A stretch of DNA of 64,000 bases from contig JAFGHO010000057.1 of NCBI GenBank assembly GCA_016930085.1, positions 129,233-193,232 on the forward strand, read 5' to 3'. Both the position numbers and the translations under genes were made by a program. Shown here in pieces: positions 10,762-64,000 of this stretch; position 1 is the first letter of the stretch, and each line of letters opens with the position of its first letter. A model generated the notes under the pieces. The model saw only the letters and a list, made by a program, of their open reading frames with translations. It did not search any database and had not been told where the DNA came from. Source of the DNA: Spirochaetales bacterium. Lineage in GTDB: Bacteria > Spirochaetota > Spirochaetia > SZUA-6 > JAFGRV01.

Positions 10762-11523
10762 GTGGGGTTAATAAAAAAAGATCACAATTTTAAAGCGCCA
10801 CCTGTTTCCCCGGAGAGGTTCAAAGAATTACAACTGTTTCAGAAATATGTCGGATTAAGGTTCAGAAGACTCGATCTTCTGAACCTTGCTTTTACCCACC
10901 GCTCATATACGAACGAGTTTCAGGGAGAAATCGATAATAATGAAAAATTGGAGTTTCTCGGTGATTCTGTTTTGGGATTGGTGGTAAACGAGTACCTCTA
11001 TCTGCACCTGACGGACAAGACGGAAGGGCATATGTCGAAGATAAAATCTTTTGTCGTAAGTGAAACCTCACTGGAATCCATCGCAAAGCAGATCAAGATA
11101 GAGAATTTCATTCTTATCGGCAAGGGAGAAGAGTATTCCGGCGGCAGAACAAAAAAGGCGATTATCGCGGACGCGATGGAGGCCTTAATCGGTGCCTACT
11201 ATCTCGATTCGGGTTTTGCGAACGCAAAAAAGTTTATACACAGGCTTTTTATCCCTGAAATAAACAAGGTACTGGAAAACAAGCATCAGAAGGATTACAA
11301 GACATTACTGCAGGAATATATACAAAAAAGATACAAAACATATCCCAAATATACGATCATTCAGAAAAAGGGTCCCGACCACGACAAAACATTCTGGATT
11401 TCGGTAGTAATTAATGGAAAACCATACGGTCCAGGACAGGGCAAAAATAAAAAAGAAGCAGAACAAAACGCAGCACAAATCGCTTACAAGACGCTTACGG
11501 ATAAAAAACAGAAATCGGAATAA
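10762..11523 (+). CDS. rnc: Ribonuclease III
   Basis: RNase III cuts double-stranded RNA, including rRNA precursors. The 253 residues contain the catalytic signature NEKLEFLGDSVLGLVVNEYL, the second acidic motif KAIIADAMEALIGAYYLDSG, and a C-terminal double-stranded-RNA-binding domain (DYKTLLQEYIQKRY to KKEAEQNAAQIAYKTL). Length is slightly over the usual ~230 because of an N-terminal extension. GTG 10762 is the only good start in frame and is nine bases after the acpP stop; the Shine-Dalgarno is weak. Confidence 0.95.
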   Translation: MGLIKKDHNFKAPPVSPERFKELQLFQKYVGLRFRRLDLLNLAFTHRSYTNEFQGEIDNNEKLEFLGDSVLGLVVNEYLYLHLTDKTEGHMSKIKSFVVSETSLESIAKQIKIENFILIGKGEEYSGGRTKKAIIADAMEALIGAYYLDSGFANAKKFIHRLFIPEINKVLENKHQKDYKTLLQEYIQKRYKTYPKYTIIQKKGPDHDKTFWISVVINGKPYGPGQGKNKKEAEQNAAQIAYKTLTDKKQKSE

Positions 11524-62052: not shown

Positions 62053-62268
62053 TCATGCCTTGCCATCGGCCTTCATCTTCTGCTCATCCTCGACATACCG
62101 GACGGAGGGGTGCGTTTTCAGGCGGTTTTTGACATCCTCCGATGCTTTATATGAATATATCCGTAATACCGGTATACGCTTGATCCGTTTCAGGTGAAAA
62201 TCCTTCTCTATTTTTTCTATTTCCTCTTCTCCGGTATTTTCATGATACCTGACCGCGATACGTTTCAT
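62053..62268 (-). CDS. Stand-alone propeptide / inhibitor I9-like protein
   Basis: A 71-residue protein starting MKRIAVRYHENTGEEEIEKI. The pattern strand-helix-strand-strand-helix and the end RLKTHPSVRYVEDEQK match the I9 fold of subtilisin propeptides, which close with a V-x-YVE-D/E-x-x segment. No signal peptide is present. ATG overlaps the stop of the subtilase gene (ATGA), so the two are co-translated. I infer a partner or inhibitor of that protease. The match is by eye; a short unrelated alpha/beta protein is the alternative. The upstream 47 codons of the frame lie inside the subtilase gene and are unsupported. Confidence 0.6.
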   Translation of the reverse strand: MKRIAVRYHENTGEEEIEKIEKDFHLKRIKRIPVLRIYSYKASEDVKNRLKTHPSVRYVEDEQKMKADGKA

Positions 62269-64000
62269 TTTTTCACCAGTATATACGGGAGTATGAATGC
62301 GAGAAGCCCGTTTGCGACCAGAAAGATCATGGCGGCTGCACCGTCGGGAAGCGGACTCAATTCCTGAAGCAGGATACCGTCTGCAACCAGTTTCGCGGCA
62401 AATCCGCAAATGAGACCGACGGAGAAACGGCGTTTGACGTCGTCCCTGAAATTGAGAAGAACGGTAAAGAGAACGGGAATCAGTATATTATGCCAGAGGA
62501 TCGAAGGCTTTGAGAGGAAAAACAGTACCCTGTCGTAATCGAGTATTGAATTGAAAATGAGTCCGGTAAAACGTTCCGGCAGGATGGTGAAGGGAAAGAT
62601 GTTCTGCAGAAAATATCCGATCATAGCAAGACCGTTCGCCCCCAATATAAGCCCCACATAGGTAAGGGGCACGTGAAGGTTGTCAATCGTGTCGATTTTC
62701 TTTCGCGTCCTGTCAAAAACGAGAAACATGAACAGTGCGATGATCAAGGTCAGCACCGATGTCAGTGTGGATGTGGTAATCGGCCCGGTATTGTAATACG
62801 GTTTGTCGGGAACGAGCGGCTGTTTCGATTTACCGGGAGGGGACGGCGTTTTTCGGTTAACGGCGTTCAGTGGATTGATAAACGGGAGGTCGGCGATCCT
62901 GCGGTCGGAACTTCTTACGAGTATGTCCCTCATTTCTTTCGGGGTCCTGACTCCGGACTGATAGAGGATCGCGCAAATACCGGCAACATGGGGAGAAGCC
63001 ATACTAGTTCCCTGGAAATAGTAGAAGTAATCGTCCCTGTCTTTTTCATAGTTTTTATAGTTTCTGGAAAGAAAGGCGGGACCATTCTGGAGAATGCCGG
63101 CGCCCGCTTCCTTGGAAATATTACCGCCGGGTGCGATCACGTCCACACCGGTTCCATAGTTGGAATAACGTGCAAGCTCGTAATCCGGCCCGGACGCGGC
63201 AACGGAAATAACGGTTTCGTAGCGGCCGGGATATCCGGAATAGCCGGAACTTTCGTTTCCCGCCGATGCGACAACGATCACGTTTTTGTCCCAGGCGTAC
63301 CGGCAGGCGTCGGAAAGTATCTGAGAGAATCCGCCTCCTCCAAGACTCATATTGATGATATTTGCCCCGTTATCCACCGCATACACGATCGCTTCCGCGA
63401 TATCGACCGTACTCCCGTATCCGCTTTTACTGAGTACTTTGAGGGGCATTATTTTTGCTTCCCATGCGATTCCCGCCACACCGCGGCCATTGTTGGTGTC
63501 CTGGCCGATCGTTCCGGCGACATGACTCCCGTGTCCGTGATCGTCTTCAAAATCGGAGGAGTTGGTGATGAAATTATATCCCCGGAAAAGACGTGAAGGA
63601 GAAAGGTCCCCGAGTTTTTTCGATACCCCCGTATCGATAACGGCGACAACGACCCCATTTCCGGTCCCCTTTTTCCAGACTTCTTCCATGGAAAACTGCT
63701 TCAGATTCCACTGTCTGGCGAACAGGGGATCATTACTCGAGGTTTTCATCCGGTAATTCGGTTCTATGGACTGGACGATATCGGAGGACTGTAATTGTCG
63801 AAGACTGCCTATCAGGGAATTGAGTTCTTCCGGCTGGATATCATATTTTGAAACCTTTAGGAGGCGGTGTTTTTTCGAGAACACATTGGAGTTCTTGAAT
63901 GAAAAGACGTGTTCACTGAAAGAAAAGCCGTACTTCCCGGCTATCTTTTGTACGGATGAAGCGTCTTTTCCCGGAGAAACGGAAACAACGAGTTCTCCGT
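62265..64000 (-). CDS. Membrane-anchored subtilase (peptidase S8), 5' end outside the window
   Basis: The frame stays open to the window edge, so the start lies beyond 64000; ~577 residues are visible. The first ~90 look like a propeptide (GELVVSVSPGKDASSVQKIAGKYG; SLRQLQSSDIVQSIEPNYRM). The catalytic triad is complete: AVIDTGVS (Asp), DDHGHGSHVAGTIG (His) and GTSMASPHVAGICAIL (Ser), with the oxyanion Asn in VVVASAGNES. After the catalytic domain and a Pro-rich linker come about five membrane segments (LTLIIALFMFLVF; VGLILGANGLAMIGYFL; ILIPVLFTVLL; LICGFAAKLVADGILL; MIFLVANGLLAFILPYIL). The protease domain should be held at the membrane facing the periplasm. Confidence 0.9.
   Translation of the reverse strand, partial: GELVVSVSPGKDASSVQKIAGKYGFSFSEHVFSFKNSNVFSKKHRLLKVSKYDIQPEELNSLIGSLRQLQSSDIVQSIEPNYRMKTSSNDPLFARQWNLKQFSMEEVWKKGTGNGVVVAVIDTGVSKKLGDLSPSRLFRGYNFITNSSDFEDDHGHGSHVAGTIGQDTNNGRGVAGIAWEAKIMPLKVLSKSGYGSTVDIAEAIVYAVDNGANIINMSLGGGGFSQILSDACRYAWDKNVIVVASAGNESSGYSGYPGRYETVISVAASGPDYELARYSNYGTGVDVIAPGGNISKEAGAGILQNGPAFLSRNYKNYEKDRDDYFYYFQGTSMASPHVAGICAILYQSGVRTPKEMRDILVRSSDRRIADLPFINPLNAVNRKTPSPPGKSKQPLVPDKPYYNTGPITTSTLTSVLTLIIALFMFLVFDRTRKKIDTIDNLHVPLTYVGLILGANGLAMIGYFLQNIFPFTILPERFTGLIFNSILDYDRVLFFLSKPSILWHNILIPVLFTVLLNFRDDVKRRFSVGLICGFAAKLVADGILLQELSPLPDGAAAMIFLVANGLLAFILPYILVKK

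Follow-up and report, generated by a model that had tools for sequence, protein, structure and literature searches.

Stand-alone propeptides of subtilases

Subtilase propeptides act as intramolecular chaperones and as inhibitors and are normally fused to the enzyme, and stand-alone forms have been characterised in fungi, plants and apicomplexan parasites. The yeast protein Pbi2, or IB2 (MEROPS family I9), is a cytoplasmic inhibitor of vacuolar proteinase B, a subtilase with its own propeptide (PMC10512327), and in Plasmodium the propeptide-like protein SUB1-ProM is encoded beside subtilisin-like genes with a synteny that is conserved across the genus (PMC6993865). Among bacteria, ASP and ORF2 of Aeromonas sobria are encoded in an operon in which the C terminus of the downstream product occupies the protease active site (PMC5638518), while in the PopC/PopD system of Myxococcus xanthus the partner complexes a subtilisin-like protease in the cell and blocks its secretion (PMC6434023). 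Stand-alone I9 proteins in eukaryotes and separate subtilase chaperones in bacteria are already known; the literature searched, the coverage of which was incomplete, yielded no leaderless I9 protein whose partner is a membrane subtilase with a propeptide of its own.

The 64,000-nucleotide stretch of spirochaete DNA analysed here (the window, from genome G000) ends in a gene pair that can be set against each of these systems. An S8 subtilase of 611 aa in full (62265..64000, minus strand; PF00082, 182 bits), whose 5' end lies beyond the window, is followed by a small ORF of 71 aa (minus strand, 62053-62268) that overlaps the stop codon of the subtilase and encodes a stand-alone protein without a signal peptide, which is propeptide-like (I9 fold) as judged from an AF2 model, Foldseek and Pfam. 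The subtilase starts at position 64100 (G000:C57:193332), 100 bases outside the window, and its full ORF was read as L001 6498-8333.

Like Pbi2, the small protein is a stand-alone protein of I9 fold that is predicted to be cytoplasmic, with a putative S8 target that has its own propeptide and is predicted to lie in another compartment. Pbi2 is, however, eukaryotic, proteinase B is vacuolar and not multi-spanning, and inhibition has been demonstrated for Pbi2 whereas here we infer it; we prefer to think of the small protein as one that may work like Pbi2, by analogy, rather than class it as a Pbi2 member. It shares with SUB1-ProM the position next to a subtilase gene, although SUB1-ProM comes from a eukaryotic parasite, probably resides with its target in the parasitophorous vacuole, and is a potent inhibitor by measurement. 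The order of a bacterial subtilase gene and then a gene for a partner protein is that of ASP and ORF2, but ASP is a secreted, kexin-like enzyme that has no propeptide and needs ORF2 to mature, whereas the small protein, at 71 aa and leaderless, accompanies a protease that keeps its propeptide. Membership of the ASP/ORF2 type of external chaperone was rejected on account of the propeptide fold at residues 34-115 of the subtilase and the lack of a signal peptide in the small protein. PopC and PopD likewise combine a subtilisin-like protease with an intracellular partner, as proposed here, but PopC lacks a signal peptide and stays in the cell until it is secreted, whereas the protease described here is a membrane protein.

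Conservation of the gene pair

The coordinates of both genes given in an earlier note on this DNA, and the 4-base ATGA overlap between subtilase stop and small-gene start (62265..62268, minus strand), proved correct when the sequence was re-read. The overlap is also found in G003; in G001 the two genes are separated by 1 base and in G004 by about 40 bases. Frameshifting at ATGA into a C-terminal fusion was discounted as a conserved mechanism because two of the four genomes, G001 and G004, lack the overlap. All four genomes with the pair have a Shine-Dalgarno-like motif before the small-gene start, in the window GGTGA (62273..62277, minus strand), inside the 3' end of the subtilase gene and 4 bases before the small-gene ATG.

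In three further genera (G001, G003 and G004) the orthologous subtilase gene is followed immediately by an orthologue of the small gene, coding for 68-74 aa. Identity is 34-41% between the small proteins and 56-63% between the subtilases, and this low identity is what might speak for a propeptide duplicate that has lost its function and survives as a decaying remnant. We consider such a remnant most improbable, as the frame is open in four genera, start codons and Shine-Dalgarno-like motifs are present, and the pattern of selection disfavours it: across the six orthologue pairs, identity at codon positions 1, 2 and 3 is 0.43-0.51, 0.51-0.61 and 0.24-0.39, with position 2 the most conserved and position 3 the least in every pair, which indicates selection on the protein. 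The orthologues, together with this codon pattern, mark the 71-aa frame as a real gene and no accidental ORF.

The proposed absence of a signal peptide was borne out, with no hydrophobic segment in any orthologue. An in-frame stop lies 4-5 codons before the small-gene start in G001 and G004, so that no signal peptide is possible there, and these stops rule out a longer small protein with a signal peptide. Since a signal peptide is excluded and hydrophobic segments are lacking, the small protein is expected to be cytoplasmic. The same observations bear on the possibility that it serves as a folding helper in trans, like Aeromonas ORF2, and/or as a reversible inhibitor that would reach the far side of the inner membrane by leaderless export. 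The next gene after that for ASP encodes a chaperone that also acts as an inhibitor (PMC5638518), and pairs of this kind, in which the partner is exported, were seen elsewhere in the phylum. However, with a signal peptide impossible in two orthologues, and with a subtilase that keeps its own propeptide where ASP is described as propeptide-deficient (in the title of a work cited in PMC5638518), we regard such a role as unlikely.

The pair is present in four of the five genomes of the family, and both genes are absent from the fifth (G002), although these are draft genomes and single absences such as that of G002 (92% complete) are not certain. Within the order the small gene occurs in 4 of 26 genomes, all in one family, and 21 others are without both genes; the same four genomes have a full-length subtilase orthologue, and the other genomes searched contain only distant S8 relatives. 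The small gene thus stands next to every orthologous subtilase found, in a set of four sequences. No further cases were found in a phylum sample of 393 genomes, and a subtilase scan of GTDB contigs returned one locus, whose sequence matches the G001 contig. A mobile module was rejected as an explanation, there being no relatives in plasmids, phages or viral contigs.

The genes around the pair, which we name from their sequence and take to be as follows, differ from genome to genome: DUF711-type and shikimate-kinase-like in G000, fumarate-hydratase-like and J-domain in G001, GtrA-like and lipoprotein in G003, and CotH-like and GNAT-like in G004. The conserved unit is the gene pair, not the neighbourhood. 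This persistence in different surroundings, together with a presence and absence that track the linked subtilase, argues against a small protein that inhibits another protease, either a cytoplasmic subtilase or one from a phage or neighbour, with adjacency reflecting common regulation only. Four further S8-domain proteins are encoded in the genome, one of them apparently cytoplasmic and IetS-like, and the small protein is closer to fervidolysin-type propeptides than to the propeptide of the linked subtilase, but we judge another target to be distinctly unlikely. Just past the window the contig ends in a short tandem repeat of GGGGAATGCCGCTTCTGC units (L001 about 11000-11066), probably the point where the assembly stopped.

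The membrane subtilase

The main features attributed to the subtilase in the earlier note were all recovered. The N-terminal anchor is a hydrophobic helix (residues 7-25), and the own propeptide (63738..64000, minus strand, beginning at residue 34, whose codon falls just outside the window) is predicted to adopt the propeptide fold over residues 34-115, with elements in the order b-a-b-b-a-b and a weak S8_pro-domain match. The AF2 model of the full-length protein, built from four sequences, has a mean pLDDT of 52.8 with low confidence in the catalytic domain and membrane block, and only its propeptide part, where block pLDDT is mostly 65-88, was used. The catalytic domain (residues 147-399; 62904..63662, minus strand) has an intact Asp-His-Ser triad, D156, H190 and S366, which together with the oxyanion residue N282 is invariant among the four subtilase orthologues. 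The best NCBIfam match, the T7SS mycosin model TIGR03921, was rejected as an assignment at 177 bits, below the equivalog cut-off of 278.75.

Hydropathy places five segments after the catalytic domain, in a C-terminal membrane block (62274..62771, minus strand) that partly matches DUF5942 (PF19366; 29.5 bits against a cut-off of 23.8). Positive charge is found in the loops after segment 1 (DRTRKK) and segment 3 (RDDVKRR) and at the C terminus (KK); by the positive-inside rule all three would be cytoplasmic, which puts the catalytic domain outside the inner membrane. The subtilase is accordingly drawn, as a prediction from hydropathy and charge, as crossing the membrane six times with its catalytic domain facing outwards, while a simple hydropathy scan splits the middle of the block differently in two orthologues. 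DUF5942 is rare in the phylum sample and goes unmentioned in the literature searched, and in the block of the window (62274-62771) the polar motifs DxDR, WHN, KRRF and AKL are invariant.

Fold and active-site features of the small protein

An AF2 model of the small protein, built from the four orthologues, has a pLDDT of 83.9 and the element order b-a-b-b-a-b of a subtilase propeptide. The top Foldseek match is the BPN' prosegment (1spb_P; TM 0.73, E 0.0024, probability 1.00), followed lower down by other subtilase, furin-type and fervidolysin prodomains, and the matches include POIA1, a stand-alone inhibitor of the I9 family (TM 0.64). None has an E value of 0.001 or better, and weak Foldseek E values are common for proteins this short. 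The I9-like fold that had been suspected from the residue pattern is thus present in the predicted structure, with subtilase prosegments as the best matches in the PDB.

By sequence, the window protein falls just below the cut-offs of both PF22148 (Fervidolysin_NPro-like; E 0.003, 18.4 bits against 21) and PF05922 (E 0.015, 16.4 bits against 21.2), the G004 orthologue passes that of PF22148 with 32 bits against 21, and the G003 orthologue has no match to curated Pfam propeptide models. To judge from the G004 orthologue, the small protein may have the same domain as fused fervidolysin-type propeptides, but the PF22148 matches in the phylum survey all lie in frames of at least 202 aa, which are mostly long enough to suggest that a protease is fused to the propeptide. 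Searched against PDB sequences, the small-protein profile gave weak matches, to subtilase prosegments only, and the C-terminal half aligns weakly to subtilisin prosegments (..VxYVEed..). The VRYVEDE motif of the earlier note is present, but it is not the end of the protein as claimed there: a tail of nine more residues (QKMKADGKA) comes after it.

The BPN' prosegment has 77 residues, the last of which is P1. Its Glu69 and Asp71 serve as caps for two helices of the protease (PMC6993865). The corresponding part of the small protein is a putative capping residue, Glu60, with the C-terminal tail (E60-A71; 62056..62091, minus strand), which by analogy would enter the protease active site; both capping and reach were judged by sequence register. 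Glu60 is invariant in the four orthologues and the residue at +2 is E, E, S or D, acidic in three of the four. Past this Glu the tails of the orthologues extend for 8-12 residues, the distance from Glu69 in BPN' being 8, and the residue at +5, which would be P4, is hydrophobic throughout (M, F, F, I), with M or V at the matching position of the own propeptide. In the own propeptide, residue 8 after the Glu is followed by a (S)(S/N)DPL stretch that is expected at the mature N terminus. Read in this register, the features used for active-site binding are kept in the small protein, which suggests a product-like inhibitor.

The retention of the capping Glu, the tail length and the hydrophobic +5 residue, all of which serve active-site binding in propeptides, argues against a regulator that does not inhibit but holds the nascent catalytic domain in an unfolded, export-competent state or reads the cytoplasmic loops of the membrane block. 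A regulator of this kind would accommodate the compartment mismatch with the folded enzyme, yeast Pbi2 has a second role in vacuole fusion (PMC10512327), and the DUF5942 block has strongly conserved polar residues and no function mentioned in the literature searched; we consider it quite unlikely.

The earlier note had described the small gene as a second, detached copy of the propeptide. The fold is indeed that of a detached propeptide, but a recent duplicate of the own propeptide was rejected: the two profiles are barely related (hhalign E 0.0099, probability 4%) and match different Pfam models. The detached propeptide is nearer to fervidolysin-type propeptides than to the own propeptide, and either was taken over from another subtilase or became detached a long time ago.

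A possible guard against unexported enzyme

On balance we lean slightly towards the small protein being a cytoplasmic I9-type inhibitor dedicated to the adjoining membrane subtilase and guarding against unexported enzyme. The subtilase would be synthesised as a zymogen that includes its propeptide and held in the membrane by the N-terminal helix and the five-helix C-terminal block, and translation of the small gene would be coupled to that of the protease, so that inhibitor is made wherever protease is made. The inhibitor would bind as a propeptide does, its sheet packed on two surface helices that are capped by the Glu and its tail occupying the active-site cleft in the manner of a cleavage product, and protease that folded, matured or was cut loose in the cytoplasm would be silenced. 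The analysis itself establishes the gene, its predicted fold, the linkage, the missing export signal and selection on the protein; translational coupling, binding, inhibition and the guarding role are all steps that we infer. As the enzyme is predicted to fold outside and brings its own propeptide, a guard would make most sense; of the two roles offered in the earlier note, cytoplasmic inhibition appears to fit better than chaperoning, since the own propeptide is kept and folding takes place across the membrane.

A guarding inhibitor is favoured by the propeptide fold, the POIA1 match, the close gene spacing and a pair that is kept in four genera amid different flanking genes and is missing as a whole elsewhere, as well as by the capping Glu, the tail length, the hydrophobic +5 residue, the leaderless product and the predicted outside position of the catalytic domain, with yeast Pbi2 as a precedent. 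Against it, the inhibitor and the catalytic domain should rarely meet, since their predicted compartments differ, the own propeptide is already one safeguard, and in sequence the detached protein is rather unlike the propeptide of its cognate subtilase; the window protein also lies under the Pfam cut-offs, and no more than four orthologues are known.

The original observation was right and, after this analysis, stands slightly stronger than it was stated. The chances are a little short of even that the pair represents a bacterial module of two genes whose products, a multi-spanning membrane subtilase and a separately encoded propeptide-type inhibitor confined to the cytoplasm, are obligate partners. 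Such a module would be a counterpart of the Pbi2 arrangement, and its inhibitor perhaps the first leaderless stand-alone I9 protein to be reported from a bacterium. If so, the same solution to protease leakage arose in bacteria, with the inhibitor inside and the enzyme sent out. The gene pair is a small and easily tested system, and a dedicated inhibitor would provide a handle on the DUF5942 membrane block, for which we found no described function.

Other detached propeptides and S8 proteins

Further detached propeptide domains were seen elsewhere in the phylum. At L058 1-1824 (G228:C1:3543000-3547000) and L059 1-2051 (G219:C53:23500-27500) a kexin-like S8 protease with a P-domain is immediately followed by an exported protein of about 200 aa, an arrangement that resembles Aeromonas ASP/ORF2 within the spirochaete phylum. 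These exported proteins carry a C-terminal PF22148 domain, above the cut-off in G228 and just under it in G219, and end in S-R-R or S-P-R. Similar exported propeptide-domain proteins of 200-220 aa are encoded at L057 1763-2371 (minus strand, G155) and L056 1664-2332 (minus strand, G177), with no subtilase beside them in the 4 kb read.

In the genome of the window, an apparently cytoplasmic S8 protein at L011 862-3345 (minus strand, G000:C88) matches the PADLOC IetS anti-phage models (E 2e-37). Another contig of the same genome (L055 3-2480; G000:C25:15000-20000) encodes a dockerin serpin, an adjacent dockerin protein that matches PF22148, the fervidolysin-type propeptide domain, and one more dockerin protein, a cluster that suggests scaffold-borne protease inhibitors.
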